This document shows positions 3,321-51,835 of a stretch of 64,000 nt of DNA, piece by piece. Source of the stretch: Hermatobates lingyangjiaoensis (lineage: Eukaryota > Arthropoda > Insecta > Hemiptera > Hermatobatidae); assembly GCA_026182355.1 (NCBI GenBank), contig JAPFBL010000003.1, positions 3,001,001 to 3,065,000 on the forward strand. The letters are read 5' to 3'. A program made the position numbers and the translations under genes. The notes beneath the pieces are model-generated. The model was not told the DNA's origin and did not search any database. It saw only the letters and a program-made list of their open reading frames with translations. Numbering within the stretch: position 1 is the stretch's first letter; each line of letters begins with the position of its first letter.

Positions 3321-3358
3321 CAACGCGTTTCGAACACGTAGTGTTCTTCCTCAGGCAT
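3321..3358 (-). ncRNA. Hammerhead-ribozyme-variant motif, family A (left arm)
   Basis: Reading the minus strand, this is identical in sequence to the plus-strand motif at 3624-3660: core CTGAGGA, one extra A, stem II GAACAC/GTGTTC with a TAC loop, GAA, palindromic stem III ACG/CGT, and T at position 17. It is diametrically opposed to the right-arm copy, so a read-through transcript of either strand would contain one sense motif and one complement. Confidence 0.6.
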
Positions 3359-3623
3359 TAACTAAAAAATACAATGACACCGGAGAGTTATCTATAGTAT
3401 ACAGTAAATATAGTACAACTTAAAAATAAAATAAAATAAGGAAGAGAATACGAACCTAAGGTGGGTGTCGGTGGTACAGCTGACTGGGAAGTTGTACCCA
3501 GTCAGTTGTACCACCGACACCCACCTTAGGTTCGTATTCTCTTCCTTATTTTATTTTTATATTGTACTATATTTACTGTATACTATAGATAACTCTCTGG
3601 TGTCATTGTATTTTTTAGTTAAT

Positions 3624-3660
3624 GCCTGAGGAAGAACACTACGTGTTCGAAACGCGTTGT
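3624..3660 (+). ncRNA. Hammerhead-ribozyme-variant motif, family A (right arm)
   Basis: Core CTGAGGA (3626-3632) departs from the canonical CUGAUGA only at the tolerant position 7. One extra A (3633) precedes stem II, which is six perfect pairs (3634-3639 with 3643-3648). GAA (3649-3651) follows. Stem III would be the self-complementary ACG/CGT (3652-3657) with no loop, and T3658 is the predicted position 17. Such loop-less stem III forms are known from Penelope-associated hammerhead variants that act as dimers. Stem I is short (GC with GT). Activity is inferred, not shown. Confidence 0.6.
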
Positions 3661-3720
3661 TTATTATACCATTAAATTTTTCTATGTGGAGACCATTTTA
3701 TTAACTTTTTACCCTACAAT

Positions 3721-4480
3721 AACACAATTTAATTAATTTAACGCCTCATAAATTTATTTATCTCGAATCTGATAAAAATCTGTAAGATCACCCAAATTAA
3801 AATGCAGTAGTAAGCAGATAATATTTTGTGAATACGTACCAGAAGGCTCCTTTTTGTTAAGGCAATTTTACCAATAATATGTAACCCATCCTTATATCAA
3901 GAGTTATTTTTGTGTACAATTTTGTATTTATCCGTATAAATGGAGCCTCCAGCGTTATGACCAGTGTTATATTTCCGATTCAATTCTAAGTTAAAATTGT
4001 TTACTTTTTTAGGCAAATTGCTAGTATCGAAAACTTTGACATTTTTGATTAGTTATAGACAATATCGGTTAGATAATAACTACAAATTTAAAACACTTTT
4101 CAAAAATTAGTACAGGAAAAAATTATGTCCAAAGCACATAATAGGCAAAAAAATGAGTTTTTTCAGGCGAGAATATCATTCAGAAAATGCAGATATCACA
4201 TACTTATATTGTGTATAATATGAATTTGATCCATAACAGTGTAATCTGTAGTGTTTTCAAACTTTTGATACACACTCACTTACCCATATACAGACATCCA
4301 AAAAAACTTTAAAATGGACTCAGGAAACTCGAACATGTAAACCTGACAAAATTACAAAGTCGATTTTTTTCATCATTTTACATACAGAGAAGTAAAATAA
4401 AAAAAGTAGTGAATACTAATGAATTTAAAATATTTCAAAAAAATACGTGAAACATGATAATGTTCCTTAGTGGTAACTTA
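3721..4480. other. AT-rich spacer
   Basis: AT-rich sequence between the family A hairpin and the pyrimidine tract. No open frame, inverted repeat or element terminus was recognised. Confidence 0.4.
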
Positions 4481-4489
4481 AAAATGAAC

Positions 4490-4719
4490 ACTCTCTTTCA
4501 CTCCCCTTAGTCTCACCTCTCTCTATGTTATCTACATTGTCTCTGCTATTTCATCTTTCCCTCTTAGTTTAATTTTTAATATCTCTCAACGACTTTCAAG
4601 CACGCTCTCTCTGACTATCTACCCCTTTATCATTTATCTCTTCCTTCGCCCTTTGTCTCTCTTTTCCTCTTATCTCCTATCTCATCACTTTCTCTCTTTC
4701 TTATATCTCCCTCTTCCTC

Positions 4720-4797
<78 letters not shown>

Positions 4798-4806
4798 TCT
4801 CCCCTC
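4490..4806. repeat. Pyrimidine tract with (TC)36 microsatellite
   Basis: The top strand is almost pure pyrimidine over about 300 bases, with an uninterrupted (TC)n run at 4723-4794. Degenerate CTCTTTCTC-type flanks suggest an old, expanding simple repeat. On the minus strand this purine tract lies just downstream of the 5.1-kb exon candidate, so it would be intronic if that exon is real. Confidence 0.95.
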
Positions 4807-4968
4807 CAAGTCGACGTATTATCTACATATGAGTTTATTCGTCCTCTTGACCATTTCCCTAATTAAATGTCCGAATTTTCACATATACAATTAAATATGT
4901 AATTAATATATTCAATTATAAAGAACGACAGATACATTTATTCAAATTTATATAATAAGATAACGTAC

Positions 4969-5207
4969 ATGCTGGTGAATTTCCCTGGTCCAAGAAGTAT
5001 CTCTAATTCCATTCCTCTTCTTGGGAAGGATCTCGAAGCGTCTGTCGGAGGACTCCTGCTGTTCGATGACTGGCTCTGATGATTGGCCTCCCACAAACTC
5101 GAACTGCCCCTCCCACAAGTCAAACTCCAGCTGTTCCAACAGCGAGTCAGGAGGTTCTTCGGACATGACGCACATCCTACCTCACTCCCGTCATCCCCTG
5201 CCCTAGT
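4969..5207 (-). CDS. Candidate coding exon, unidentified gene
   Basis: A GC-richer island whose minus strand ends in a donor-like CAGCAT|GTACGT (donor bases 4963-4968). Two frames are open. The more protein-like one starts at the ATG at 5175 and contains SEEPPDSLLEQLEFDLWEG followed by a basic patch (ILPKKRNG); an in-frame TGA just upstream means it would be a first coding exon with 5' UTR. The alternative uses an acceptor TTGCAG at 5208-5213, enters in phase 0 and gives a serine-rich reading. The 42.0-kb exon leaves phase 0, which would fit the second reading. I favour the acidic reading because of its charge pattern, but cannot identify a family. Confidence 0.4.
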
Positions 5208-5213
5208 CTGCAA

Positions 5214-8200: not shown

Positions 8201-10554
8201 CTAAACTGAGGCATTGTTCTAAGAAAACCCTGCACAATCTTCTCTTCAAATGTTTCATTCCTACTACTCGTGTCCTCGGTGATCCAGATCACGTCTACAT
8301 TAACAGCATACTTGCGGATTTAGTGTTCTGTTAGTGGTGTCTGCCAGCAATTCACAACGTAGAACACTCGTCCTAATCAGTCTAAGATTGACGTGACCCC
8401 AAACTAGTCGAAGAATTCAGACATACAAGGTGTGTTTGTTGTATAAAGCAGCCTTCTAGTTGAGTCTACTCCTCTGTTTAATGCAACCTCCTGAAAACGG
8501 ACGGACAGATAACAGATACTTTACCTATACAGAGACATTTGAAATTAGCCAGCTTACTTAATACTTTATCCTACCAACCATTTGGGCATCAATTGTAGTA
8601 CATTATAAGAAAAGCTCACTGGATTAAGTTGTTAGGTGCTCTGTCGTCTGACGCCTAGTTTTGCCGAAAGTCAATTTGAAACTGACACTAAACCACTTAA
8701 TGGATACCCCAGTATAGATCTGATCTGCAACACTGACGAAAATGCACCACTTCCTCTGTTGTACGAACAACCCGTTCTCCCCAGCAATACATTACCGATA
8801 GTAGAGTGGAGGTCGTTGACCAAGCGAAATGCCACCCACTTCCCTCTATTTGGCAGCTTCTTAAAGTCTATTTGCTCTATTTGCTTAAAGTCGCTGGAAA
8901 TTTATTTTTATATTTAAATTTCTAAACACATTTATTTTAATAGACCTTCTGTTTGCCAGTATTAATTCAGTCTGCTTTTTGAAAATTTTATAATTTTCCG
9001 TCAAACTTAGACGTTAGCTACGAAAGTTCCTTGACATCTAGAAAACTAACAGCTTCTTGAATTATTTTGTTTCTATTTCAGGCGGTTAAAATATGTATAA
9101 ATGTATATTATATGCATAACAAAGACTTCAAGTCAAAAACACAGTGAGAAGGACAAACTCTTATAATTCTCTATGAATCTGGCAACTTCAGTTGAAATGC
9201 TCAGTCCAACGGCAGTCTTCAGGAGAACTGAAGAATACAGATGGGAGAAGAAACAAAGGGGTAACAGACCATTACAGAGTCCGTAACATACAGTATACTC
9301 CTGTCTGTTACAGGAGTAGACACACACTCCTGTGGGTGTCAAATATTGACTATATTTCAATTACTATATTCCAACATATTTTACCTTTAAATGTCTAGAA
9401 TATGGAAGTGAGGAGTTAAGCTTTGAACACAACTATTCAGTTTGGAATACAATGAACAGAACACACTGAACCTTACCACAAAGTGAGAATCAGAGTCCGG
9501 CCAACTTAAAATCATGATATAATGGGCAGAAGTAGAAATGATGACGAATAAAGACTGACGTTGTTAAGAAATAGTATCGAGTCTTCTTTATTTAATTGTA
9601 ATAGATCAAATACTATAAAGAATACTAATTGTTTAAGTCAGACTTAGTGATGTCAAAAGCAATAGCTTTGTCTACCAGGGTTAACACAAATCTTTTGAGG
9701 TCGGTGTGAGTTATTTATACACATTCCATGTGAAATATTCAAGTCACTGGAAACATTGTTAAGAACCGTTTAAACATAATTAAAGAAAATATTATCATAA
9801 AAGTTTCTCCTTTTCTCAAAAGTTAAGATTCAGAAGATAAATAAAATAATCGTTTGCCGTTTAATGTTGCCCTTATTTCTGCGACTATGTCCAGGACGAT
9901 ATTTCAGTGAAATGCCGAAGAGTGTAGCACACCTAGCGTTCATCCAGGAAACAAATGGTTAACTGCATTGCGGTATCACTAACAACTACTCGGTACTGCG
10001 TCAGTCCTGGGGCCAGGCTTCCTCCCATCTGTCCTCTTTCGTCTATCATGTTTCCTTGTTTCTTTTTTACTCTGAAGAAGAAATACTGTTCAAAAGCTTT
10101 GTTATATATTTTTTGCATGGTTTCGGTTTGTTTTTTTTTCTCCATATTTATATAATCTACTGTATGGAACTTTAAAATTGAATTAAGGATCACTGGACCT
10201 ATAGCGGGCACTAGCAATTTTAGCCCTTTGTTAGAATAGTACCACGTATTTCTTAGCGGACTTCGATTGGTCCTAGGCCACTAACTCAATCCTTGACGTC
10301 ATAAGGCATTACGTTAACAAAATTCTGTTATGATTTTGTCTTTCTTTAAAGTAAGTTAATCATAACAACCTCACACTCTCAATGGCTTCTAAAAGATTGG
10401 CATAATCAATTTCCTCATTACAGTTCGTCATCAGGAAAAGACGGAATGGCAGAGATGTCCTCCAGTCATGTTTTCTGTTATTTTTAGTTTATATACATGG
10501 AGTCATATAAATATATTATTCCTTTTATGCGAGTCCTGTCTTGTCTTTCAAGTG
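5214..10554. other. Long stretch with no recognised gene
   Basis: Mostly AT-rich. It contains one small perfect palindrome (6414-6447), a GC-richer patch at about 8095-8450 and an open frame at 8636-8917 on the plus strand (93 codons, no recognised domain). On the minus strand at about 9930-10075 there is a good acceptor (TTTCTTCTTCAG) followed by an open frame (VKKKQGNMIDERGQMGGSLA...) ending in a stop, which might be a terminal exon but has no family match that I know. None of these is strong enough to call a gene. Confidence 0.35.
6414..6447. repeat. Perfect 15-bp inverted repeat, 4-nt spacer
   Basis: CTGAATTAATATTCA (6414-6428) is followed after four bases by its exact reverse complement (6433-6447). 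No neighbouring element explains it. It could be a bare hairpin or the remains of a tiny foldback element. Confidence 0.8.
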
Positions 10555-10560
10555 GGATCC

Positions 10561-10653
10561 AACTGAGTTAGGCTTTTGACTCTGACGAAGACCGCTTATT
10601 ACGGTTGAAAGGTCTTAGTCCTTTTTTTCCCCCTGTTTCATATTATGGTTTAA

Positions 10654-10655: not shown

Positions 10656-10693
<38 letters not shown>

Positions 10694-11566: not shown

Positions 11567-12055
11567 ATTATATATATATATTGATTAAAAAGATTTCACA
11601 TAAACACGTGAAATAACAATCAATCAATCATCAAACCACAATATGAAATGGGAAAACAAGACCAAGATCTTTTAACCATAACAAGCGGTCTTCGTCAGAG
11701 TCAAAAACCCAACTGAAACACTAGATGCAGAAAACATCTGGTGAGAAAACACTTTCGTTACGAGGGGAATAGCCTCTTCTAAGAGGGTTGACAGCTATCG
11801 GATAGTTTTTTACTCTTTCTTACTGTACTCCTTTGTTTCCCCAAACATCCCTTTCTGTACATTCGTCCTTTCCTACGCTTTCACCCTTTTAAAATACCAC
11901 TCTTCCCTCCCACTCTTCTCAACCCCTCACTAGATGATTTCTGCATCTGTGTTTCAGTTGGGTTTTTGACTCTGACGAAGACCGCTTGTTACAGTTGAAA
12001 GATGATATTAGTCTTGTTTTCCCATTTCATATTGTGGTTTGATCATTGATATATA
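11567..12055. mobile_element. Family B inverted-repeat element, diverged copy
   Basis: The left arm (about 11581-11735, minus orientation) and the right arm (about 11932-12050, plus orientation) are family B termini, separated by about 200 bases of pyrimidine-rich unique sequence. Hammerhead-like motifs lie at 11661-11703 (minus) and about 11967-12016 (plus). The plus copy has a small insertion in the stem III region (GATGATATTAG where other copies have GATCTTAG) and a stem II substitution, so it is probably inactive. The element lies about 100 bases upstream of the PLE reverse-transcriptase remnant, on the same strand as its right arm. Confidence 0.65.
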
Positions 12056-12149
12056 TTGATTAGTAGATATACATGAAAGAACAGAGAACATCAGGGGAAT
12101 AATGAAGTTAACTAAAAATACATTTCATTTAAATTACTTGTAAGGTTTT

Positions 12150-17254: not shown

Positions 17255-18440
17255 AGTTGTCCTACAACACTCGTAAAGGATGGTTGAAAACTTTAAATCG
17301 AGAACAGGCTTGATGAATGTAAAAAATTACTGAAGAAGTTGTTAGTGCGAAAAATAGGTGGCATATATGTATCCAACTGAATTGTAGAAAAATATTGATG
17401 AAAATCATTACAATCTTCAACGTAGACATGGTGGAGCTGTTGTAGCAAAAGCGTCATCAAGAACATATCTTACGAAAAAAGAGAGAACTCAACTTTGGTA
17501 TAAACTGCTAAAGGAACGCTTAGCTATTATGTTAGGAGGCAGAGGCAAACTTGATTTGAAATTAAAGCCCCTTCTTGTGAATCGATCTCAAAATGCAGGG
17601 GCATTAAGGGGAATCAATAAGTATACTTTACCTGTGACGTGGCATGCTGATCAAAAGGCGTGGGTCACAATAACGTTATTTCAGGAGTAGTTTAAATCTT
17701 ATTTCTGTCCTCAAACTAAGTAATACTGCATGAAAAACAATCTACCTAATAAGGCACTTTTGATCTTAGATAATGCTTCTGATAGATAAACCCAACCTCA
17801 CTTAATGAGATAAATAAAAATGTGAAAGTTACTTCTTTGCCTCCAAACACAACTCCCCTTCTACAACCCATTGACATGGGCGTCATTTCTGTATCCAAGA
17901 CCCATTACCTTAAAAGAACTTTCTCTCTAGCCGTAAAGCAAACAACAGAATTAAATACATTCACTATTCTCAAATTTTGGAAAAATTCTAACGAAGACGG
18001 AATAGATAGATTATGCCTGACAACAAGTGACTGAAGAGATCCAAGAGAAACATGTTTGTGAAAATATGTTGCTTGATTGTGCGAATTTTGTCAGATTATA
18101 AAAAATTATGTTAAGAAAGTACAAAAAGAAATTGTTTTTATTGGCATCACTCTAGGCCTTGAAAGTGTTAATTCAAAAAATGTGAACATGTTGAATCAGA
18201 AAATGGCTAAGAACTTTTAGATTCAACTTCAAAATCATGAGTTCATGAAGGCCCTTCTCGAGATCGAGCAACAAGCAATTTAAAAGAAATTGAATCGTAG
18301 GAAATATCTATTAAACATCTCGAAGAAATATTACAAACTTTTAGTACTCTCAAACAACAAACTATTGCTACGAATCCAGACAAGAATCGCAGCAGTCCAA
18401 TTAGCAAGCTACCACTGAACTATCGATGAGAAAAAACTAA
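17255..18440 (+). pseudogene. Decayed pogo/Tigger (jerky-type) transposase
   Basis: Pieces in three frames reconstruct the family order. Near 17.28 kb is KGWLKT, the end of the DNA-binding region. FNVD (about 17420) marks the first catalytic aspartate of the DDE/D domain, and RTYLTKKERTQLW follows. KLKPLLVNRSQNAGALRGIN and LPVTWHADQKAWVT come next. LLILDNAS (about 17758) is the second catalytic aspartate, and LPPNTTPLLQPIDMGVIS (17835-17890) is the highly conserved block before the third. A lysine-rich C-terminal tail runs to about 18440. At least six stops or frameshifts are present, so it is dead. It encoded the cut-and-paste transposase acting at TA targets. Confidence 0.85.
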
Positions 18441-19600: not shown

Positions 19601-19620
19601 CTTTCTATATATATATATAT

Positions 19621-20062
19621 AAACTTAAAGTTTATCAGGACTCGGTCAGTTCTTCAGATCCAAATTAAATTCTCATTGTCAACGTTTCGGTTTTTATTTA
19701 AAACCTTTTTCATAGGCAGAAGAATAAAACTTTGAAACAGAAAAACTAAGTACTACATTAAAGACTATTTTACAAAGAAAAATAGTCTATGGATGTCAAC
19801 AACAACTGTCTTGTTAGAATGTCACATGTTCATTGAAACTAGTCAGATGTTGTTTACATTTACAGTTTATTTTTCATTGTATAATAATCCTTAATGTAGT
19901 AATTAGTTTTTCTGTTTCAAAGTTTTATACTTCTACCTATGAAAAAGGTTTTAAATAAAAACGTAAACGTTGGCAATGAGAGTTTAATTTGAATCTGAAG
20001 GACTGACCGAGTCCTGATGAACTTTAATTTTCTTTCTATTTCACGGTCGATACTTTTATCAA
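19621..20062. mobile_element. Family C inverted-repeat element (spliced form), flanked by (TA)n
   Basis: Head-to-head arms. The left arm (about 19621-19805) is in minus orientation and the right arm (about 19880-20062) is in plus orientation, with a unique central region of about 90 bases. (TA)n lies outside both ends. Each arm contains the exon junction CTTCT|GCCTATG (left, between 19717 and 19718) or CTTCT|ACCTATG (right, between 19934 and 19935), exactly where the 51.1-kb copy has a 128-bp intron. Hammerhead-like motifs follow at 19680-19717 (minus) and 19935-19973 (plus; the GAAAC core has decayed to GTAAAC, so it is probably inactive). Confidence 0.7.
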
Positions 20063-23000
20063 TATTCCTATATATATATATAAACATATATTTATATATA
20101 TTTACAAAAACAAAGGCTTTTCTTATTCCCAGAAAAGTTTTGAATATAAATGAAAAGGTACATAACTGATAAAAAAGAACGGAAAAATCTTATTTAGAGT
20201 AGAAGAAGGGAAGCTTTATTTTGATTTATGGGCGTTGTTATTTATGGAACGCCCAATATGTTGACATTTCGTCATTGGATGACGCGTGTCTAGTAAAGGT
20301 CAGAGACTCTATAACGCTGATGTCCGCCAGTGCTGTGCCACTCCAGGCGGTCTATTACTAGCCTTAGTTCAATGTTCTCTATTCGACAGATGTCAAAATA
20401 TTCAAGTGAGTCCTTATCGTGACTTTCTTGTGTTTGAAAATTTATAAATAAATACAACAGTACATGGAAAAAAATGTCACAATAAACACATATGACCAAC
20501 AATCTAACAGTCCCCCCACAATGATAATCAAAAATAAAAACTTCAAAAGTCTTCGGGCAACTTTTTTAGTTAAAAAACAGAATAAACAAAGAAAAAGAAG
20601 AATGAATCGTGAGTGATGGTGAATCACTAAAGGAACTATGTTTTAAATTGTGTCACAATTACTCAATTTAAAAGGCGTTGAGGAAAATAACCTTAAACTA
20701 CGAGTAGTCGCTGTACTACTACATATGAGGATGCAACTAAATAAACTTAGCACATATTAATGACATAATCAATGTTCTATTAATCATTTGATTAACACTA
20801 CAATATTACACTGTAATATTAAGCACCTAATAATACAGATTTCATTACTACTCCATTAGATTACTTCAAAGTCACTAAAAGATTGAACTCACTGCTGTTG
20901 CAAACTAAACATTCTCAATATGTCAAATGTCATTCACAGCTCCTTAGCTTCTCCAATACTGTCCCCTTGTTTATTCTGCTACTCTTCTCAAGATGAGATC
21001 CCAAATGAAATTAAAGAGAAACAGAGTGTTTGTTTACTTCTATTTTTTGTTTTATATGTTGATATATGAGTACCTACAAAATAACATAACGTAAAAATCA
21101 GCGTCTAAACCAGAGTATAAAATTCAAAAATGCTACCCTTCTTCCTCAGCTCACTACAAATCTTGACATTATTATAGTTATTTGTAATGTCTATAGCGTA
21201 GGCAACTTGATTAAAAGCTATCCTAGAAACTTGAGTGAAACCAAGTCTTCTTTAATTTAGTTAAAAACATCAAATATATTAAATACTATTAATGGTGCAT
21301 TCAAATGAGACTAAGTATTAAAAAGAGAAATATCCTTGTTTAGGGGGTTCACAGCAAAATGCCAATAACGTTTTTCTAAATTCGTTCCGAACCCTCCAGT
21401 ATACCACATTCCTGACCAACCATTTTTGTTTTCATGCTTAGAAAGCAAGAAAAATGCTTTCTAAGCATGCTCGGACTAAGCATGTCATTGTGTAACTTTT
21501 ACAAAAATTAGTCACACAATAAAAATTCTTTTGTCCCATTTCTCAATTTCATCATGATTTAGACGCTGGTATACATATGTTAGAGCAGGCTGTGTCGGTT
21601 TGGATTTCTTCTTGCTTAATTTTTCTAATTTCGGATTCCTTCCTCGTTTCTTCTTCAAAGCTATGCAGTGCACTAGCTATGTTTCTGGTCGACATGTTTC
21701 TAGTGATACTTCACTCATACTCAGAACAGAAATTGTATTTAAGCTGGAGATTCTTTATATTTGTATATAAAAGAGTGATGGTTGAAGGTTTGTTTTTATG
21801 TATCAAGTAAGCATAGTTTTAAGACCTCTCTGGTACTAGCCATTTTAATTCTTATTTCTATCTTCTTTTATTGAATTATTATCCCTTCCATGTTATCTAT
21901 GGAATCCATTGTAATCTAAAATATTCATTTTATTTCCTAATAATTCTGACTCCATTTGCAATCCATTACTTTCATTTACAACGATGATTCCTTCAAATTT
22001 ATATAGTTGGTTCAATTGTTTTCATTAATAGCTTATATATATATATATATATATATCGCTTAGTGTCCCTATCTCTCTCTCTTGATGACGGCTAAACAAA
22101 AATTAAGAGACTGTAGATGTGTTTTTCTATTTACTGTGTACCTATAGTTTATTCTGAAATGTTTGTTGTCCTTTTTTGGATCGTTTTCTTGATGGTAATA
22201 TATATATATCACAACAAAAAAACATGTGATAAAATCAATAAAGTTTAAACCACAAGGAAAAAGAAAAAGCTTCAGAGAATTTATTTCTGTCTTTCCTTTT
22301 AAAAAATTCATATATATATATATATACCACCTACTAATCACTAATTGAAACTCTTAGGAACGATACAACACAGTAATTTATTCCTATTATTACTTACAAC
22401 TGTTTTTATTTTTTAAATTTATTTGAGATATAAATAAAGCATCTATGCCACGAGCAAATAACGTTGCAGATTCTTCCTGATGCTTATTGCAGGTAATTCT
22501 AATAAATTATTGATAATGAGAAGCGAAAGAAAAATACTGGTTAGAAAATGAATCCATTTACGCAGGGCTTGTAAACATTGTTGAGGTCCAATGAATAGCT
22601 CTAACAAAAACGCTTTCACCTACTATTACCGACCTCTACGGTGGGTAGAGATCACATCTAGGATGAAGGAAGTCAAACCAACCCTTCTCTGTCTTAGTAT
22701 TCCAAGTTTTCAACATGATCTGTCATATAACAAGCTCCTTCAGCCAAATTAGCTATAATATGGTATTAATCATTCAAATGTATCTAAGAAAAAAATTCCT
22801 AAAACGGCTTATTTTATTTTCTTTTTCCTTCTTATTACTTGTTTTCAACATTGTTTAAAACAAACATCAAAATTTTACTCAAAGAACATCATACACGATC
22901 AGCATTGACCATGGAAGAATGGCACGGCTATATTATTTGTAACACTCCCAACTCAACACATATCACTGCTGAAGAAACCGGGTCCTAATCGAACCATACA

Positions 23001-33325: not shown

Positions 33326-33358
33326 TATAATATATATATATATATACAATTAAAAGAA

Positions 33359-33530
33359 ACGGTCCAGCGGACTTTTTTAAATAAAATAAATTCAAAACGA
33401 AGGAAACACACAGACATAACTCACATCCATATTTCGACCATCGTCTTCACACCTCCTGATGACGACGATGGTCGAAATATCGATGTGAGTTATGTCTGTG
33501 TCTTTCTGTGTGTTTCCTTCGTTTTGAATT
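33359..33530. mobile_element. Family E inverted-repeat element with hammerhead-like motif
   Basis: Arms of about 60 bp (from 33389 and ending 33530) form a near-perfect hairpin around a short centre. Outside the left arm is the family E 3' terminus (reverse complement of AAAAGTCCGCTGGACCGTTTC), which also occurs at 40.85 kb. The right arm carries a well-formed motif (33450-33487). The left-arm copy has lost the 5' core. Confidence 0.65.
33450..33487 (+). ncRNA. Hammerhead-ribozyme-variant motif, family E
   Basis: This copy has the canonical CTGATGA (33456-33462). One extra C precedes stem II GAC/GTC (33464-33466 with 33471-33473, loop GATG). GAA (33474-33476) is followed by palindromic stem III AT/AT (33477-33480) and C33481 at position 17. 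Stem I pairs CACCTC (33450-33455) with GATGTG (33482-33487), five of six pairs with one C-T mismatch. It is the copy closest to the textbook hammerhead core in the window. Confidence 0.65.
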
Positions 33531-33578
33531 TTTATATATATATATATATATAATATATATATATATATAATATATATA

Positions 33579-33798
33579 TCAATGATCAAACCACAATAAG
33601 AAATGGGAAAACAAGACTAAGATCTTTCAACCGTAACAAGCGGTCTTCGTCAGAGTCAAAAACCCAACTGAACTCAGTTGGGTTTTTGACTCTGACGAAG
33701 ACCGCTTGTTACGGTTGAAAGATCTTAGTCTTGTTTTCCCATTTCATATTGTGGTTTGAACATTGATTGTTGTTTCACGTGTTTATGTGAAATCTTTT
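33579..33798. mobile_element. Family B hairpin, copy at 33.6 kb
   Basis: Two family B termini head to head with almost no spacer, flanked by (TA)n on both sides. Motifs lie at 33615-33657 (minus) and 33688-33730 (plus). The right arm extends to TGATTGTTGTTTCACGTG, giving the fullest family B terminus here. Confidence 0.75.
33688..33730 (+). ncRNA. Hammerhead-ribozyme-variant motif, family B (best copy)
   Basis: Stem I is four perfect pairs, GACT (33688-33691) with AGTC (33727-33730). Core CTGACGA (33692-33698) differs from canonical only at position 7, and an extra A follows. Stem II pairs GACCG (33700-33704) with CGGTT (33712-33716), a G-T pair closing the base. GAA (33717-33719), palindromic stem III AGA/TCT (33720-33725), then T33726 at position 17. 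The same motif recurs in all family B arms, some with damage. Confidence 0.65.
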
Positions 33799-34064
33799 TA
33801 TATATATATATATATATAAAGATTTCATATAAACACATGAAATAATAATCAATGTTCAAACCACAATATGAAATGGGAAAACAAGACTAAGATCTTTCAA
33901 CCGTAACAAGCGGTATTCGTCAGAGTCAAAAACCCAACTGTATACCCAATATAGTATCAATCGGGTTTTTGACTCTGACGAAGACTGCTTGTTACGGTTG
34001 AAAGATCTTAGTCTTGTTTTCCCATTTCATATTGTGGTTTGATCATATATATATATATATATAT
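33799..34064. mobile_element. Family B hairpin, copy at 33.9 kb, in (TA)n
   Basis: A second family B head-to-head pair directly adjoining the first, separated from it only by (TA)n (33799-33818) and followed by another (TA)n (34044-34064). Motifs lie at 33885-33927 (minus) and 33971-34013 (plus). Arm sequences differ by a few substitutions from the neighbour, so the pair is either a tandem insertion or an old duplication. Confidence 0.75.
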
Positions 34065-40905: not shown

Positions 40906-41093
40906 AAGACCTATACCTCCTATACTGATGTAATATAAAAGGAACTGAAAAGCTGACTGTAAATTTGTACTCATTTGACACCACAACTGAAAGGATGTGC
41001 GAAAATAAAAATGTCAGTAAATTTACCAAATGAATGACAAGAACTGAGAGCTCCAAGATCACTATAAATTATTATAAATAAAGTAAGTAAATG

Positions 41094-41215
41094 AAACGGT
41101 CTAGTGTACTCTTAAATAAAAACAATTAAAAAGAAGGTAGGACACAGATAGACAAAGGAATAACACACATCTATATTTCGACCATCATTGTAATCAGGAT
41201 GTGAAATATAGATCT
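41094..41215 (-). mobile_element. Family E single-arm copy
   Basis: Shares the family E terminus (GAAACGGTCTAGTGTACTC, a diverged complement of GAGTCCGCTGGACCGTTTC) and motif region. The minus-strand motif at 41166-41203 keeps a perfect six-pair stem I (CACATC with GATGTG) and GAAATAT, but the core has CTGATTA and stem II is disrupted. Confidence 0.55.
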
Positions 41216-42910: not shown

Positions 42911-43049
42911 CTAACGTAGTGCAATCAGTTATTATGTGGTATATTTACTCATTGTCGGGTAAAAAGCTAATGAAATGGTCTCCACATATAAAAATTTATT
43001 GGTATAAACAACGCGTTTCGAACACGTAGTGTTCTTCCTCAGGCATTAA
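42911..43049 (-). mobile_element. Family A single-arm copy
   Basis: Matches the left arm of the 3.2-kb hairpin, from AACGTAGTGCAATCAG through GGTAAAAAGC to GCATTAAA, then diverges. The minus-strand hammerhead-like motif at 43009-43046 is intact (CTGAGGA core, six-pair stem II, GAAACGCGT). Confidence 0.7.
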
Positions 43050-44310
43050 ATTTAAAGCCTTCTAATTTCATCAGAAGTATTTCATGTAGAAAATTATTTA
43101 GAATTTTTCTGAAAGGATTTTATTTTTCTATTTCAGTCTTGAAAAAAAATAGTAACTCCTAAATAAAACTAATTAAATTCAATTTAAATAAGAAAGTGAG
43201 ATCTCACTGAACAAAACTTCATTTTTTCTGTGTTAACATTTTCAATTACAGATAGGAATTTGGATTACATTATTATTTCAGATTCTATTTTTAGATTTCC
43301 AAAACTATGTATTTAGATTTTTTTATTCAAACAAATTAAAAACATGATCAAATTTAATTTTAAAATGAAAGGATTGCTTGCTTATCGAATAATACAAAAA
43401 AACTTAATTATTTCATAGTTAATTGATAGAAATATTAATAAGTGATGGTGACTTTGGAACAGGAAACGAGGTAGAACTACAGAATATAATAAGCATATAT
43501 CACATTAATACCTTAAATATATATATCTAAAACTTTCCGATGAACTGAAACATTTTTTGCAACCAGTGTTACAAACAAATAATCTACCACTAATTGTTAC
43601 ACTTAATAAATATATTAAATTAATGTTTAAGTCTGTTACATTTTTTATAATCAAAAACAAACGTAATTACAAACAAGTCAAAAATAAGAAAACTTGTAGT
43701 ATTGTATTAATACTCTACCATTAATAAGATTTCTAACTTTCTAGTTGTCATAATTGAATGAATTAAAAAATAAATTTAATTCTATTGCATCTGCAATTAA
43801 ATGAACAAATTAAATTAACCAAGTTAGCATTGTTATTGTAATCTCAGTTGAATTCCATAACTGTATTACATAATGATATTACCAATAACTTTGTTAGTTC
43901 CACTAAACTTTCTAGAACATTTCACTTAATATACTATATATGTATTAATCCAATCTTATCTTCAATATGTAAGTTCCATTTTTGTAAAATAAAAGGTTCA
44001 GTGTTGTTTCAGATGTCTTTCAAGGCATTGCACAGCCTCTATACAAGAATGTTGTGCGGTATAGCATCTTAAGTATTTGCCAGGCTCAATAACTTCTTGG
44101 CGTACTCTACAATCTACTCACTCAAACATTATTAATTACATATTTAAAATAAATTTTCATTGTTGTACATTATGATAAAAAACTCAAAACAATTTCTTTT
44201 AATAAGAAACATGACTTTAAAATCCTGAAACTAACTTAGATAAATCATACATTCTCCCTCTCTGAAACGTTTTTGTATAAATATTCATATAACTTCTCGA
44301 CCACTGATTT
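43050..44310. other. Unassigned AT-rich DNA
   Basis: No gene or element recognised. The 74-codon frame at 43848-44072 has no family motif. Confidence 0.4.
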
Positions 44311-44312
44311 AT

Positions 44313-44667
44313 AAAGTTCAAAGAAGAAAGGGTTGTTGAGGATTTTGGTCTAAAGAAAATTAAACTCCTGTTTATACACCGACGTTTCGCCAAACATTGT
44401 TTGGCATTTTCAAGGCTTGTTTTTGAGAAAAACACTATTTAACAGTCCATGCCTGTATCTACCAGCAACATATTCGTATCTGTTATGTTAATAAATAACA
44501 TAACAGATAACTTTAGCTAGTAGATAAAGGCATGGACTGTTAAATAGTGTTTTCCTCAAAAACAAGCCTTGAAAATGCCAAACAATTTTTGGCGAAACGT
44601 CGGTGTATAAAGAGGAGTTTAATTTTCTTTAAACCAAAATCCTCAAGAACTCCTTCTTTGAACTTTT
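44313..44667. mobile_element. Family D inverted-repeat element with two hammerhead-like motifs
   Basis: Near-perfect arms of about 150 bp (from 44313 and ending 44667) around a centre that itself holds GTTATGTTAATAAATAACAT. The right arm has the motif at 44566-44604; the left arm holds its complement. The two arms differ at a few positions (for example TTTATACACC against TTTATACACCG context and ATTGTTTGG against ATTTTTGG), so they have mutated since formation. Confidence 0.7.
44566..44604 (+). ncRNA. Hammerhead-ribozyme-variant motif, family D
   Basis: Core TTGAAAA (44569-44575) has changes at positions 3 and 8 of the canonical core, then an extra T. Stem II is six perfect pairs, GCCAAA (44577-44582) with TTTGGC (44588-44593). 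GAA follows, then stem III AC/GT (44597-44600) and C44601 at position 17. Stem I pairs GCC (44566-44568) with GGT (44602-44604). G8 is catalytic in the hammerhead, so the G-to-A change would be expected to slow or abolish cleavage. Confidence 0.5.
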
Positions 44668-46585
44668 TGCATTAAGTCCGAAAGAAATAATATCAAATGT
44701 TTTCAAGTATGTAATTGGTAATGTTTGAGTGAAGAGAAAGTATTGGAATGTAGATTGAGAAAGAAGGTAATAACTGAGTGGCCAGCGATACGTGGAATGC
44801 TATACCGCACAACACTCGTGTATTGTGGGCTGCAGCAAAGAACTACATGACATCTGAAGCAAGATCCATCGAATCTTATATGACCCAAAATATTGAGGAC
44901 AACATGCTAATACTAATACACGGAAATAAGTGAAATCATACTAGAATGTGTATTCAAACTACTAAAGCCACCATGCAATAGTACTTATAATAAGTATTAT
45001 CCGCTTTACGTATGATATTTAATACATTATAATTAAACATACTATACGGAGTTATGCTGTAATCGTATATAGTATTTAGCATTCTACTATTAAATTTTTT
45101 AAGCTATTTACTATCAATTGTGTTTCCAAGAATGTTTAAATAGCAGAAAAATAACAATTCATTTCTTATTTCTTATTTTATATTTTTCCTTAAAATGTCC
45201 ATCTTTACTATATTTTTTTATTATTATTAATAATAATAATACGTCATTGTTTTTAATATTTGATGTACAAGAAAATGTTAAAGTTACCACATGAAATCAC
45301 ATTATTTTTTCCGTACCCGCCGGAATTTTTATAATATAGAAATATTTTATAATATATTAATAATAATATATATCATTTTATAATATATTATATGCTTATA
45401 ATATATTATTATAACTTTACCTAATCTATACGGATAACAAAACAAGCGTATTAACAAGTTTTGTTAATACAAAGCTCCTAGCTCTTAGTGAGTATCATGT
45501 TAAACTCACATGGAACTCATGTAAACGCAAGATGTTGAATAAATCACAATGGGATACGGGTCAAAGCTCCTCAAATGACGACTTCTGACACTCAAAAACC
45601 AGGCGGATTAACAAGTATCTCAAAAAATGTCCAAGTCCATCATGTACTACCCTGTTTCTCAGAGAGGATAATCAAACGCATAGATGAAACCAAGAAAACC
45701 CTAATATTTTACAAGTATCTAAAAACTATTTAAACCTCAACCATCCTTTTCAACTCCATCTGTATCAACTGTACCACTACGCGCAGCCTCCGACCACCAT
45801 CTTCTTTCCTACTATTAATATCAATCAGGCCGTAGCAAAGCTAAAATAAAATTTGCTTCTCGTCATAATGACCGCAGTAAAAAGAAGTCAACCCCCCCCC
45901 CCCCCTGTTTATTCTCTTGAAAGTTAAACCCAGTTTATCGTTCTAACTAGAACAGTTTATATTTAGAACTGGAACAGGGAACCACTCTGTAGCTAGGCTG
46001 CCTGGTCCAGTTTAGTAAGCAAGGTGTCTCACCAAGTATGTTCTAGGTCAGGCCACTACATTAAAACAGTGGTTCTGTACTTGGAATTGAAGTGAGCTTT
46101 TGACTTGGTATGGAATAGGGGTCTGTTTCACAAAACTAAGTGTTTTAGTTTGTTTCGATGGTTTGTGGAGGCAACAGTCTTTTCTCGCCAGAACGCAATT
46201 TCTTTCGATGATTTCCTTTGATGATTAACAAACATTCCCCAACTAGAAAAATGCATAAAGGCTTTCCTCAGGGTAATATCCTTAAGCAGTAATAATCCTT
46301 AAGGGTAATTTAGGGCAGTAAGACAATCGACTAGGAATACAGCACTTCAACTTGACTGAGTGACCTACAATTGAACAATTTTGAGTGACCTTTCTAGTAG
46401 TCCTGGCACAGTAATTCAGACCAAGACCCTAGCCTAGAACTGCTATGTACAATCCACTTATCATGGCAATTATTATTATTCAATAAAATAAATCCTACAT
46501 TTTAATAACTATTACTTCTTTAAAATACCAAATATTTGCCTTTATCATGTTTAAAATTCTATATAATATTAATCACATATAGTTA
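44668..46585. other. Unassigned, AT-rich; poly-C run
   Basis: Includes an AT-only stretch near 45330-45420, a small hairpin (GTATTAACAA at 45448-45457 with its complement at 45461-45470), and about 14 consecutive C at about 45892-45905. No gene recognised. Confidence 0.4.
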
Positions 46586-46586
46586 T

Positions 46587-46975
46587 TATAATTATAATAT
46601 TAACAACTACAAATACAGTTCCTTTTTATAATGTTCAATTTTATTATAATCAGTGAAATTTATGACTCATCAATTATTTTCTAACCACTCGTATGTAATG
46701 CATTAAACATAAAATTAAGAAATAGGTAAAACCGTCATACCAGCCAGGTTTGTTGCGATCGAAGATGGACAACGTGTGAAAGCGCTCCAACTCCAAGATC
46801 ATCTTACGAGATATTACGGTTTTACCTATTTTTAATATAAATCATACTAACCCCAGTGGTATTAACAATATGCATGTATAAAATTAAGACACCTCTAAAC
46901 ATTATAGTTTGATATAATCTCGAAATTTATTATAACGCTTTACTTAAATGACCTACAAATGAATTTCTAAATCAT
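46587..46975. repeat. Dispersed repeat, copy 1 (interrupted)
   Basis: About 230 bases closely match 48010-48240 (starting AATTATAATATTAACAAC). This copy is split by a 158-base insertion at 46720-46877; copy 2 is the empty site. The two copies are in direct orientation and flank the LINE tail at 47.4-47.8 kb, so they may be 3'-end sequence of one retroelement family or a local duplication. Confidence 0.75.
46720..46877. mobile_element. 158-bp insertion with 11-bp target duplication
   Basis: ATAAAATTAAG occurs on both sides (46709-46719 and 46878-46888) and once in the uninterrupted copy at 48.1 kb, so the boundaries are exact. Within it, AAATAGGTAAAACCGT (46720-46735) and its complement (46816-46831) form a hairpin. 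The longer duplication suggests target-primed retrotransposition (SINE- or LINE-like) rather than cut-and-paste. I do not recognise the element; the phrase CCAGCCAGGTTTGTTGCGAT has a partial match near 62.55 kb. Confidence 0.65.
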
Positions 46976-47434
46976 AAAACTACATTGACCATCACGTTTT
47001 TTGTTGCCCAATTTTTTTAACCTGATTTAGGTTAATTTGGGGGTGCTGTTTACGAAAATCATACTACTTTTTTTCTCATCAGGTCAAGTTAAAGAGATAT
47101 TTGCTATTTAATATCTTTTCACCTTAAAATTAGGAGTATTTCTAAATACATTCTAGCGCCATCATTACAGTTGTAGGTTATTATTGTGATCTATGTTAAA
47201 TGATTATGACATCAGAAACCTTAAAACTTTTACCTGCATAGCAAATTTTTGGAGTAAAAATTAAGCATGGCTACATCCTCTTCTAGGCAACGTTCCTTAA
47301 ACAAGCCAAATGTGTTTGCAATATTTTTATGGCCAGCCAGATTTTTCTACTGAACTGGAATATCTGCCTACCTCTTATTCAAGAAACCAGATCATTTTCA
47401 TGCGTAACGAACAAAGAAAAGTGTTAAATTGAAC

Positions 47435-47830
47435 TTCTCTTTAGTTAAAGTCCATGTAGAGAACACAGGGAATGAAAGAGTCGATTTTTTGGCCAAAACT
47501 GCACAAAAAATGAAATCAGAACCCCTTCATTACCAAAATTTGCATATTTAGCATTGGTGATGTGAAAAGCTGAAGAGACATTCCTCCTCAGATGAGAGGA
47601 GACTTGGTCAGCCACACAGTGAGAGCACTGACGAAGGAGTTCTTTCCATCAACTCGGAGTTCATTGGTATTAACTGCAAGTGCCATGGGAAGATGCTTTC
47701 CTATTTTCATCGGTGCAATGTTCTACCCGCGGATGCCTGCCATATATATCCCCACAGATAGTAGAGCCAATTTTGTGGGATCGTTGTTATTTAATCCCAG
47801 CTACAGCAGTACTGATCAAATTCTTTATTA
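47435..47830 (+). pseudogene. LINE ORF2 tail: RNase H and C-terminal domain remnant
   Basis: LVKVHVENTGNERVDFLAKTA (about 47444-47506) matches the final block of LINE ribonuclease H domains (WxKAHVGxxGNExADxLAKxA), with the conserved HV, GNE, D and LAK residues. Further on, CHGKMLSYFHRCNVLPAD (about 47670) resembles the C-terminal GHGxFxxYLxRFxL region that precedes a CCHC-type zinc knuckle. Frame changes occur between the parts. Non-functional. Confidence 0.6.
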
Positions 47831-48005
47831 TTAAAAGAGGGTGACCCCAGGCTAACCATGCTGTTGGACAGCTTGTATATGCGAATACAAATGTTTTCAA
47901 TAAAACAATTTTGAATGTGTATTGCAATATATAAGAAAATAACGAAGAATCACTTTAGTTTAAGCATCAGCTTTGTATATTTTATAACCTGAGTTTTCAA
48001 ATAAT

Positions 48006-48245
48006 AAAACAATTATAATATTAACAACTACAAATACAGTTCCTTATTCAAATATTTAATTTTATTATAATCAGTGAAATTTATGACTCATAAATTATTT
48101 TCTAACCACTCCTATGTAATGCATTAAACATAAAATTAAGACACCTCCAAACATTTTAGTTTGATATAATCTCGAAATGAATATCTTCGTTATTACAACG
48201 ATTTACTTAAATAACCTAAAAATGAATGCTTGAATCATATCGCAA
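48006..48245. repeat. Dispersed repeat, copy 2 (uninterrupted)
   Basis: Direct-orientation match to 46587-46975 without the insertion. It differs by scattered substitutions and short indels. Confidence 0.75.
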
Positions 48246-50515
48246 TATATTATTTAACTACTGGTTAATCAGTAAATAGTGAAATACCACTGAAGCAAAT
48301 AGCCTAGAACTATATATTTCTTCCCATACACATAGGTTAATTAGCGTTTGCTTTAATAGCATCAAGAATTTTAATCTTGTTGCATATCATATTAGCTGTT
48401 TAAAATACTTTAAAAAGTTTTTTATTAAACTTATTCATGAAGACAATGTCATATATTATCGAATAAGATCAGATCGAACCATCCCATTATTTTACCTTAG
48501 GTGTTAGTAATATATAATATTAACTGATACTAAAGTAGTTATGTAGTTTCAAAGAATTGTTTGTGTATATAAGTGGTACTTCTTATAATGAAGTTATTTG
48601 AATTATTTTATTTTATATTTAATATTTCAAATTAATTTATAAATTCTAAATTTGTGTAATTCAAAAGTACTAGTTAGTACCTATGTAAAGCATGTTGTAA
48701 ATGAAGCTTTCTTAAAGAAGAAACACAACACACATTTCCGAGACCAAATTTATTTGCCGTTTTCACTCCTACTTCTCTTATAATGTAGTCATTCATAGTG
48801 TTTCTATTCTAATAATTTCATACTATAGCAAACGAAAATTATTTTCAGTAATGTCATAGTAGATAGATGTTGTACTAATGAGTTTATTATTATTGCTAAA
48901 ATATCTAAAAATATATTTTTATAAACACAATGACTAGTTTAGCGGTAAACTGAACAACTCCGAATGACTTTGTTGCACATCCATTTTACTCATAAGGTGA
49001 AAGTATTTTGCTATTTGTGATAAAGGATGTAAACTTGTGTAACTTTGTTATGATGTAAATTTCTGATAACGGATGAAAATGGTAAAAAATATCAAAATAA
49101 AATTAAGATTTTCAATACAGTCGAAAAGTCAAGCAATGATAAACAAGTTTATGAAGTGAAAGTCTGGACAAATCAAGGAGTTGATCACTGTTATATATAT
49201 TTTTTTAAACTAAAAAAGCAACAGTCTCGAAAAAGAGAAATCAAGAAAGCAGACGTTGAAACTCACTCAAGCTGATAGTGCTTGTTTATGTTGGCTTTTG
49301 ATATATCTCATAAACAGCTAACTGGAGTGTTAAAAGCGCTACTACTCGCAGGTTTTGGCTTGCGGGTCTTCTATTATGTAACCTCTATATGTTAGTTCAC
49401 ATTCAATGCTACTTCCCAATATCATTTCCAACTCTCTAAGCTCTTTATTAATCTTACAATCAAACAAAAAAGTTATACATTGTTCTTCTATTTCATATCT
49501 CTCACTCTCTCACTTTCTCTCTCCCCTCCCTTCCTAACTTTTTTTCCTTACCCGATACATGTAGTGAAATTACCAAAGTTCTTTACTATTTATATGAAAG
49601 TAAAATCAAATATATTTCTGATCAGATAGAATGAAATACAAAATAAAAGAATAAAAAAAAAATTATAAATGCACACTCTATGGTGCTATCAAAACATTTG
49701 CTGCCAGCACAAGTGACAGAATTTTGATCACTTTGATCAGTACACAACTTCAAAATCACTTAAGTCATGACGTTTAGTCTATGTTGGACAGACTTTCATT
49801 TAAAATTTTAATTTACTCCCATCGCAAGTGACTCGTGAAGAATCACTATGCATCACTATTGATCTCCCCCATTGCCCTACTATCCCTCTCTGTACTCAGA
49901 TCTGCTCTAATTATTCACTACAATCATCATCCTTTGATAAAAGGATAACTCAACAACTATTTCTGACAACAATTGCCTTTCAACAATGATAAAATTAGTT
50001 CACTATATTAAAAAATCATTAAACAATTTTGTAAACGCTACATGTTCACTTTTATAGCATGGATCTCTTTATAGTAATGCTTCAGGATTAAGAGATCAGT
50101 TCATAATCAATGAAATAAAAAACTATACAGCCATAGTGCTTATTCAAAATATGGCATTTTTAATTGATCTACTGGAAATTGTAATATTATAATGGACCAA
50201 ACCGATCGACCATGCCCTTGAATTTCACCAGTATTGAAATATCGACTTCTCCAATCTGATTGAACCGTAGTTTGAACCACTGCTAATAAAATTGAAGGCC
50301 TGCTGCATCATGACATTCAGTTTTAAACATAATGAAAAAACAAAATTTTGAACGAGTTTTATTCAATAATAACAACTGAACCCATCACTTCTTTTAAAAA
50401 TAATATAAGTGAAGCGTTTTGTGACGTAATTTTAAAATGATAAAATAAATTTAATAGTAATAGTAATATAAATGAAAGAAATAATATTAATTGAAAACCA
50501 GCAATATCAAAGATC
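48246..50515. other. Unassigned AT-rich DNA
   Basis: No coding or element signal. A short CT-rich patch at about 49495-49535. Confidence 0.4.
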
Positions 50516-50519
50516 ACAG

Positions 50520-50529
50520 TATATATATG

Positions 50530-50567
<38 letters not shown>

Positions 50568-50765
50568 ATTTTACATATACACGTGAAATAACAATCAATG
50601 ATCAAACTACAATAAGAAATGGGAAAACAAGACTAAGATCTTTCAACCGTAACAAGCGGTCTTCGTCAGAGTCAAATCTGTTTCAGTTTTTGACTCCGAC
50701 GAACACCGCTTGTTACGGTTGAAAGATCTTAGTCTTGTTTTCCCATTTCTTATTGTGGTTTGATC

Positions 50766-50806
<41 letters not shown>
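50520..50806. mobile_element. Family B hairpin in (TA)n, copy at 50.6 kb
   Basis: Arms at about 50565-50680 (minus) and 50684-50767 (plus), with (TA)n of 20 or more units at both ends (50520-50564 and 50766-50806). Motifs at 50631-50673 and 50692-50734. The plus motif has CTCCGACGAAC where others have CTCTGACGAAG, disrupting the core and the base of stem II, while the minus motif is intact. Confidence 0.75.
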
Positions 50807-50808
<2 letters not shown>

Positions 50809-51113
50809 AAACTGTAGTTTATCGGGACTCGGTCACTTCTTCAGGTTCCAATTAAACTCTCATTCGTGTTATTATTTCAAATTTAAATAGTATTTATTCG
50901 GGTGTGTTAAGTTAAACATTGTTGATAAATGAAAAATTGTGTTAGTGTCTTTTTGGTTGTCTGATGAAATTTGGTTACCTTGCTTGGTTATTTCAGTTCA
51001 GTGTCGCGTGTTCATTCAGACTACAGTTGTTGTTAAAATCCACATACTATTTTTCTTTGTAAAATAATTTGTAATGTAATACTTAGTTTTTCTGTTTCAA
51101 AATTTATACTTCT

Positions 51114-51241
51114 GTAAGTTTTCTCACTAAGCTATAGTCAAAATTTCTATTGTAATTTCTTAATTGTAACTAATTGCACTTTTATGTATGTTTGATTTTT
51201 GAATGATTGTATTATTTCTTATATTTCCTCTGTTTTTGTAG
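51114..51241 (+). other. 128-bp spliceosomal-type intron inside a family C element
   Basis: CTTCT|GTAAGTTTTC at the 5' end and a pyrimidine-rich TTTCCTCTGTTTTTGTAG at the 3' end, with branch-site-like CTAAT about 70 bases upstream of the acceptor. Removing it gives CTTCT|GCCTATG, which is exactly the sequence in the left arm of the family C hairpin at 19717/19718; the right arm there differs by one base. The comparison is direct; splicing itself is inferred. Confidence 0.8.
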
Positions 51242-51281
51242 GCCTATGAAAAAGGTTTTAAATAAAGACCGAAACGTTGGC
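51242..51281 (+). ncRNA. Hammerhead-ribozyme-variant motif, family C
   Basis: GCC (51242-51244) can pair with GGC (51279-51281) as stem I. The core is degenerate (TATGAAAAA). Stem II pairs GGTT (51254-51257) with GACC (51267-51270, one G-T pair) around a nine-base loop. GAA (51271-51273), stem III AC/GT (51274-51277) and T51278 at position 17. The poor 5' core makes catalytic activity doubtful. Confidence 0.45.
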
Positions 51282-51492
51282 AATGAGAGTTTAATTGGAA
51301 CCTGAAAAACTGACCGAGTTCCGATAAACTATAGTTTTGTTTCTATTTCACAGAAATATAATATATTTATATATATTATACCATTTAAATAAATACATTT
51401 AATTTAAATAATTACCATTAAATTATATATTTATATATTTATGTATATATATATATTTGTAAAAGTTGGAAGCAGTCCTTCATTTAAACATA

Positions 51493-51835
51493 TATTGTTA
51501 AATAACGCCCCATATTGCAAATAGAAACACCCAGATTAGCCAGGTAGTAGGTGAGCCCAACCACCCTACCTTAATCCCCCATAATGCGCCGTAATACGGG
51601 GCGATGCCCTGTAAACTTTCCATTAATAATCCATCTCTATATATATAACTAGCTTTCCTACTATTACTCTCATTATTGTCCTGATGATGAATGTGGTGCA
51701 TTCGAAACATGTCGACTAGTAATATTGGTGATAGACTTTATAGTTTTAATGAAGAGACGAGGAAGGAATTCCGGAAACTGGAGAAATTGTGTAAGAAGCA
51801 GATACAAGCCAAATATGGGGCGTTATTTAACAATA
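51493..51835. mobile_element. Family F element with 24-bp terminal inverted repeats
   Basis: TATTGTTAAATAACGCCCCA... (51493-51516) is perfectly complementary to 51812-51835. The interior is non-repetitive apart from the ribozyme-like motif (51678-51716). A short interior frame (FNEETRKEFRKLEKLCKKQI) after the motif looks protein-like and basic but is too short to assign. (TA)n lies on the right. Confidence 0.6.
51678..51716 (+). ncRNA. Hammerhead-ribozyme-variant motif, family F
   Basis: Fully canonical CTGATGA (51681-51687), one extra T, stem II GAATG/CATTC (51689-51693 with 51699-51703, loop TGGTG), GAA (51704-51706), palindromic stem III ACA/TGT (51707-51712), C51713 at position 17, and stem I GTC/GAC (51678-51680 with 51714-51716). 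With family E this is the best catalytic candidate. Confidence 0.7.

Follow-up and report, generated by a model that had tools for sequence, protein, structure and literature searches.

In a 64,000-nt stretch of the genome of Hermatobates lingyangjiaoensis (assembly GCA_026182355.1, 909,949,117 bases; contig JAPFBL010000003.1, positions 3,001,001–3,065,000 of the forward strand; hereafter the window, in whose own numbering all coordinates are given), six repeat families, A to F, most probably represent terminal fragments of Penelope-like retroelements (PLEs) of several lineages. Each would consist of a pseudo-long terminal repeat (pLTR) with an optional tail and would carry a minimal type-I hammerhead motif, with one unpaired nucleotide between A9 and stem II and with stem III reduced to a palindrome of 4–6 nt that is unable to close on itself. 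We put the probability of this reading at roughly 85%. Minimal hammerheads in PLEs are already known; added here are a count of the linker constancy, spliced and unspliced copies of family C, coding parents of the D-type and F elements, and a count of head-to-head pairs. The minimal type-I hammerheads of PLEs are reportedly treated by Cervera and de la Pena in 2014 and by Lunse et al. in 2017. All available PLE sequences are said to carry them (PMC6155905; this and the other papers given by PMC number are cited as far as excerpts of them reach). They occur in many animals, likewise sit in pLTRs and lack a proper stem III. They may act as dimers, and what they do in vivo, and whether they are active there, is described in a review as a mystery (PMC7761336).

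Hammerhead motif and one-nucleotide linker

With the six stem II strings as queries, 12 exact motif sites were located in the window: three of family A (3626–3651, plus strand; 3329–3354 and 43017–43042, minus strand), four of B (10582–10609 and 33692–33719, plus; 33626–33653 and 50642–50669, minus), two of D (44569–44596, plus; 44386–44413, minus) and one each of C (51246–51273), E (33456–33476) and F (51681–51706), all plus. All six motifs thus lie where an earlier sequence-only reading of the window had placed them. That reading also saw no overall similarity between the families, in agreement with blastn searches of each family against the window, which returned its own copies and a few matches of 19–28 nt.

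A strict descriptor was applied that demands a stem I of at least 3 pairs, the core HUGANRA, a linker (the nucleotides between A9 and stem II) of 0–3 nt, a stem II of at least 3 Watson–Crick pairs, GAA, a palindromic stem III of 4 or 6 nt running from A to T, and H at position 17. It matched seven sites in the window (B four, D two, F one), every one with a linker of one nucleotide, against two matches in total in 60 dinucleotide shuffles of the window, with linkers of 0 and 3 and none of 1. Families A and E miss the descriptor with just 2 contiguous pairs in stem I, and C misses it with a stem I (GCC/GGC) offset by one nucleotide. The sequence-only reading had assigned one extra nucleotide before stem II to every family and two to C; the former agrees with all seven strict matches, whereas the second extra base of C appears to lie at the offset of stem I. 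Moreover, stem II of C comprises 6 pairs, including one G-U, instead of the 4 pairs (GGTT/GACC) proposed in that reading. A covariance model, seeded with 18 motifs that were chosen largely for pairing and partly built from window sites, yielded 21 window matches at E ≤ 1, of which 19 are copies of families A–F. Rfam returned no hammerhead in the window at gathering level or at E ≤ 5, with a phage-hammerhead control at the gathering level only. This silence was dropped as evidence against a hammerhead, because the gathering cut-offs also miss full three-stem phage hammerheads.

In canonical hammerheads, stem II normally follows directly after A9. We collected strings of core, GAA and palindrome from the window and from 50 host stretches drawn by GIY-YIG, without demanding stems I or II. 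Among the 83 distinct strings obtained, a stem II of at least 4 pairs occurred in 40 at linker 1 (two of them A/T-rich and chance-like) and in none at linkers 0, 2 or 3. In ten shuffles, which together yielded 207 strings, such cases numbered 5, 3, 4 and 6 at linkers 0, 1, 2 and 3. When 14 further stretches were added and the palindrome condition was dropped (64 host stretches plus the window in total), stem II had 5 or more pairs in 36 distinct strings, of which 33 were at linker 1, one at linker 2, two at linker 3 and none at linker 0, in a sample of PLE-rich stretches from part of the genome, some of which overlap and many of whose strings are related to one another. Because one unpaired nucleotide precedes stem II in 33 of 36 well-paired strings and direct attachment to A9 was found in none, the families appear to be a hammerhead variant, and the consistent one-nucleotide bulge that had been proposed holds in the sampled stretches. 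A pattern search of the host genome for one linker-0 string, with stems unscored, found 7 sites vs 3 for the reversed control. Stem III was indeed self-complementary, being a palindrome of 4 or 6 nt in 29 of the 33 well-paired linker-1 strings. Since so short a palindrome cannot form a hairpin, stem III would need a second copy of the motif and could pair only between the two.

Stems I and II covary, stem I of families A and E being weak. In an alignment of 54 distinct rows, derived from 88 model matches in 65 sources, 87.0% of cells were paired, compared with 61.9% after shuffling, and the covariation score was 0.728 vs 0.235, a value reached by 0 of 500 shuffles and compared with at most 0.194 in slid controls; two of five measures (both-side changes and further pair types) were no higher than in the shuffles. 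The paired fraction was 98.8% in stem II and 75.3% in stem I. Because the structure guided the alignment, as pairing largely guided the choice of seed motifs, this result leans towards the structure, a bias from which the stem-free linker count is free. With this proviso, covariation as suggested for testing in the sequence-only reading was borne out, here on 65 sources rather than genome-wide.

The canonical core CUGANGA..GAA with A15.1, U16.1 and H17 is present in A, B, E and F; D has U3-A8 in place of C3-G8, and C departs from the pattern with A3/A8. Positions U4, G5, A6, A9, G10.1, G12, A13, A14 and A15.1 were invariant in 18 diverse motifs, most of them chosen by a descriptor that demands all of these except G10.1. 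With such a core, cleavage would be expected after position 17. Natural U3-A8 as in D has been described by Perreault et al. (2011), together with core insertions elsewhere, some of them in active ribozymes; an insertion before stem II is not mentioned in the excerpts of that study (PMC3088659).

Phage and satellite hammerheads (types I–III) share the core and general fold of families A–F, while many of them have a stable hairpin as stem III. A scan of 120 viral-contig stretches found at least 33 distinct three-stem hammerheads; among the matches listed, 22 had linker 0 and 11 linker 1 (nine U, two G), a ratio that is no measure of frequency, as the scan pattern favoured certain bases. In nine of these contigs (L002, L011, L013, L029, L073, L076, L081, L085 and L092), phage-type three-stem hammerheads have a single additional U ahead of stem II, and L019 and L091 hold several hammerheads each. 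The PLE-like motif with an ACGT stem III was not found with both stems at linker 1 in 61 stretches of viral contigs, and among 102 stretches of prokaryote genomes one passed, dependent on G-U pairs.

A tentative suggestion, which we consider less likely than not, is that the extra nucleotide belongs permanently to the hammerhead core of PLEs rather than being decay and is shared with some phage hammerheads. It would then represent a second natural core geometry at A9/G10.1, which we take to be a metal site, and might make PLE ribozymes reliant on either a second RNA copy or the protein of the element. Where the linker base is U, it reads AUG with A9 and G10.1, so that in some coding families the start of translation could fall within the ribozyme core. 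Among 72 linker-1 matches, which include redundant copies, the linker base was U in 52, A in 18 and C in 2; in A and B it is A, and no AUG is formed. An overlap with a start codon was rejected as the reason for the additional base and kept only within the suggestion above, given these 18 A and 2 C and listed AUG frames of at most 60 aa; of nine phage motifs that form AUG, one opens a frame of 324 aa, another one of 79, and seven have frames of at most 20. A constant one-base core insertion across many motif families poses a direct structural question and provides ready natural variants.

Coding relatives and the family C intron

A GIY-YIG search of the host genome returned at least 142 matches (150 scored of 9198 candidates). 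Host locus L217 has the order inverted pLTR, pLTR with motif, two pieces of an open reading frame (ORF), and direct pLTR. Its second ORF piece matches GIY-YIG (2.8e-8) and RVT_1 (1.6e-6; 28.4 bits, just under the Pfam cut-off of 29.6), and its pLTR shows homology to family D that covers both motif and tail. The family F copy in the window contains the first 48 codons of a PLE ORF (51691–51834, plus strand), with the start codon inside stem II. These codons match no fewer than 150 places in the host genome (150 scored of 21210 first-look candidates), two of them within open frames of 841 aa. Locus L346 is arranged as inverted pLTR, pLTR, 841-aa ORF and 3' pLTR; its ORF matches RVT_1 (E 3.1e-7, 30.8 bits) and starts within stem II, inside the ribozyme motif, and its 3' pLTR has the same end point as the window F copy, likewise in a TA run. 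In both loci, directly repeated as well as inverted pLTRs flank the ORF, and D- and F-type motifs, respectively, occur 5' of the coding part and in the 3' repeat. The membership in PLEs that the sequence-only reading had proposed for all six families is directly shown for D by L217 and for F by L346. The support is indirect in A, B, C and E and comes from their head-to-head pairs, their two-tier tail ends, their dinucleotide-run targets (B, C and E) and the spliced intron of C.

The PLE protein did not reveal the same element outside the host genome, in genome contigs or in viral contigs. It has 765 related proteins, and the named ones among 120 listed are all from insects. Three further host loci, L211, L213 and L214, hold PLE-like ORF copies of 850, 817 and 811 aa that begin inside a hammerhead-like motif (ATGAAGA T GGA..TCC GAAA), whose stem I is offset by several nucleotides as judged by eye.

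Family F resembles the Poseidon element PAc of Anolis carolinensis: both have an ORF that begins at hammerhead stem II, copies that break off a short way into this ORF, and AT-rich targets (PMC11167929). The cut site lies 26 bp after the start codon in PAc (PMC11167929); in family F the predicted one, by hand count in L346, follows 23 ORF nucleotides. Reverse transcription of PAc begins inside the RNA, 111–118 nt into the ORF, and both target strands are cut and extended (PMC11167929); family F ends about 144 nt into its ORF. The PAc hammerhead cuts only with the protein present (PMC11167929).

In family C, the copy at 51023–51351 (plus strand) retains a 128-bp intron (51114–51241, plus; GTAAGT...TTTTGTAG, with terminal TAG) that ends directly 5' of stem I. 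This intron is also present in L204 and partly in L210, and it is cleanly lacking from three other copies, namely both arms of 19613–20062 and L195. Because a DNA transposon would not lose an intron cleanly from some copies, family C has moved through RNA, and at least for this family the template was spliced sense RNA. In the Adineta vaga study, sense vs antisense template is left undecided and intron retention is discussed (PMC3846280), whereas C has spliced copies as well as retained ones. Symmetric pairs and spliced and unspliced copies bear on how PLEs prime and on which RNA gets copied.

Head-to-head pairs, target sites and competing explanations

Nine window loci with the orientation (−,+), picked from the blastn copies, have the upstream side of the motif central and its downstream side outward. 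Their arms are 86–98% complementary, and their centres measure 8, 180, 2, 8, 12, 9, 417, 5 and 10 nt, that is, 2–12 nt in seven of nine. Unpaired are two copies of A, one of B, one of E, that of F and a tail fragment of C; a (+,+) tandem of short units was not seen among the blastn copies in the window. Of the 150 family F places listed, neighbours no more than 5 kb apart form 29 pairs, 27 in (−,+), two in (+,+) and none in (+,−) orientation, with start-to-start distances from 180 to 3949 nt; one (+,+) pair is formed by two repeats of L346, and the other has identical spacing.

The outward ends of A, B, C, D and E occur in short and long forms that lie, by eye, about 30–45 nt apart, corresponding to the optional 3' tail of about 30–40 bp of PLEs. 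A dinucleotide run (five or more units within 41 bases of the tail end) was found near 15 of 24 tail ends, which were placed by eye and some of which share a run, vs 1.6% of random 41-mers. In many copies, such TA repeats obscure any target-site duplication. These patterns resemble the Penelope elements of Adineta vaga, which have head-to-head inverted pLTRs with palindromic junctions, an optional 31-bp tail, TATATATA in a pLTR, solo pLTRs and introns; the word ribozyme is absent from that text (PMC3846280). From the junction palindromes, snap-back self-priming was proposed (PMC3846280).

The following course is probable. Reverse transcription would begin within the tail, a short way 3' of the ribozyme, and owing to this early start many new copies would hold only pLTR, ribozyme and tail. 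The complementary DNA (cDNA) might then snap back and prime itself, or both nicked target strands might be extended, either of which would give mirror-image pairs, with TA runs as frequent targets. The ribozyme itself would act in transcripts of intact tandem elements, where two motifs could pair their palindromic stems III in a tandem or trans dimer, possibly assisted by the element's protein.

Several observations speak against interpreting the six families as hammerhead-bearing PLE ends. The minimum free energies of A–F (z = −0.41, −0.95, −2.53, −0.72, −0.76 and −0.66) barely go beyond shuffles except in C, and a free dimer fold does not pick the hammerhead dimer. Positions 3 and 8 are sometimes unpaired (A3/A8 in C, C3/A8 in L199 and L229, U3/G8 in L221 and L223). 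No GIY-YIG was detected in the 840 aa of the family F ORF that were searched, RVT_1 being the only domain found, and a coding relative was shown for none of A, B, C and E. Nine of the 24 tail ends, including all four of A and both of D, lie away from dinucleotide runs. Snap-back does not account for the 180- and 417-nt centres of two of the nine pairs, and neighbours are not always head-to-head, as B pairs abut tail-to-tail over a common TA run (33797/33818).

The motif might be a fossil or a structural RNA signal, for instance for protein binding near the start of reverse transcription, that no longer cuts. We consider this unlikely, although the weak free-energy support, the extra base beside the core and the imperfect 3-8 pairing of some motifs fit it, as do the protein requirement of the Anolis hammerhead and the fact that its ribozyme mutants still insert in vitro (PMC11167929). 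Its opponents are the invariant core positions, with the reservation that the 18 motifs were mostly descriptor-chosen, the U3-A8 that takes the place of C3-G8 in D-type motifs and is regarded as a compensatory exchange (PMC3088659), and the one-base linkers in 11 of the 33 full three-stem hammerheads among the viral-contig matches listed. Less probable still is an origin of A, B and E as retrozymes, non-autonomous hammerhead elements that spread by circular RNA with borrowed PLE machinery. No coding relative of these three was found, and the extra A of families A and B forms no AUG, both of which such an origin would accommodate; however, copies of A, B and E are single or head-to-head instead of short direct tandem units, their two-tier tails are like those of D, which goes with a coding PLE, and invertebrate type-I hammerheads of that kind mostly form a stable helix III (PMC7761336). 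Fold-back DNA transposons (miniature inverted-repeat transposable elements), in which the hammerhead-like string would be a coincidence or a protein-binding palindrome, could produce long inverted repeats with tiny centres, and a palindromic mariner copy lies in the same window. Spliced-intron copies and elements coding for reverse transcriptase already contradict this origin for C, D and F, and the constant linker, covarying stems and shuffle controls leave it very little room overall.

If the families are PLE ends, the head-to-head pairs may still have formed in two ways. Two separate cDNAs, one per nicked target strand, might have been made instead of one snap-back cDNA, in keeping with the Anolis protein, for which cutting and extension of both strands are described (PMC11167929); the long centres in two of nine pairs and the spread of start-to-start distances in family F would suit this route. 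The arm starts, on the other hand, agree to within 2–12 nt in seven of nine pairs and yet vary among the family B pairs, as fold-back predicts. Equal arm starts thus favour snap-back and the two long centres do not, and we regard two cDNAs as the less likely route, albeit one with a sizeable share of the odds.

Individual copies and other features of the window

Family A forms one pair, with arms at 3220–3488 (minus; long 3' end) and 3497–3720 (plus; short 3' end) around an 8-nt centre, and two single copies, at 42940–43050 (minus; long 3' end) and at 53383–53603 (plus; long 3' end; core mutated to CTGGGGA at 53469). The latter lies beyond the range 3321..51716 given in the sequence-only reading, which also did not list a degenerate second copy of F (21608–21728, minus, 72%).

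A single copy of B (10561–10651, plus) lies at a (CA)n run. Its four pairs are 11578–11745 (minus; degenerate motif 11657–11706, long 3' end) with 11926–12050 (plus; degenerate motif 11964–12011), around the 180-nt centre; 33578–33671 (minus) with 33674–33797 (plus; long 3' end at (TA)n), around 2 nt; 33818–33945 (minus; motif 33881–33931 with mutated stem II), tail-to-tail with the preceding pair, and 33954–34046 (plus; motif from 33975, short 3' end at (TA)n), around 8 nt; and 50568–50676 (minus; long 3' end) with 50689–50771 (plus; motif at 50694 mutated to CTCCGACGAAC, short 3' end at (TA)n), around 12 nt.

The intron-less arms of C, separated by 9 nt, span 19613–19821 (minus; motif 19673–19721) and 19831–20062 (plus; motif 19931–19979 with GTAA for CGAA, long 3' end at (TA)n). 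A tail-only left arm (50806–50864, minus) begins 3 nt beyond the predicted cut site, and a tail fragment (51886–51948, minus) has a long 3' end at (TA)n. The arms of D lie at 44283–44490 (minus; U3/A8 core, long 3' end) and 44496–44666 (plus; short 3' end), with a 5-nt centre. Family E comprises a left arm truncated inside the motif (33358–33449, minus; long 3' end), a right arm (33450–33533, plus; short 3' end at (TA)n) and a degenerate copy (41070–41203, minus; long 3' end). Family F is represented by a solo pLTR with tail (51560–51825, plus) that ends at (TA)n. Since the window copies are short (up to about 330 nt), none spans a reverse transcriptase ORF and several cores are mutated, most of them are probably dead.

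Two further hammerhead-like signals are probably due to chance: a lone string at 54178–54226 with a 5-bp hairpin stem III and the core CTGAAAA, and a covariance-model match at 10064–10107 (23.1 bits, E 0.013) without GAA after stem II. The mariner copy is a near-perfect palindrome at 51978–52923, with 369-nt arms that are 99% complementary around a 208-nt centre, and holds a mariner/Mos1-like transposase fragment (HTH_48) in 52143–52571. Another transposase fragment, of the DDE_1 superfamily, lies at 17388–17687 (Pfam E 2.2e-6). Direct repeats of 131 nt (95%) and 49 nt (96%), with spacings of 1421 and 1252 bases, occupy 46590–48178, and a 28-bp minisatellite of 4.5 copies with 96% matches is found at 61519–61645. 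A short near-perfect hairpin at 63024–63078 matches Rfam mir-5928 on both strands, below the cut-off of that family.

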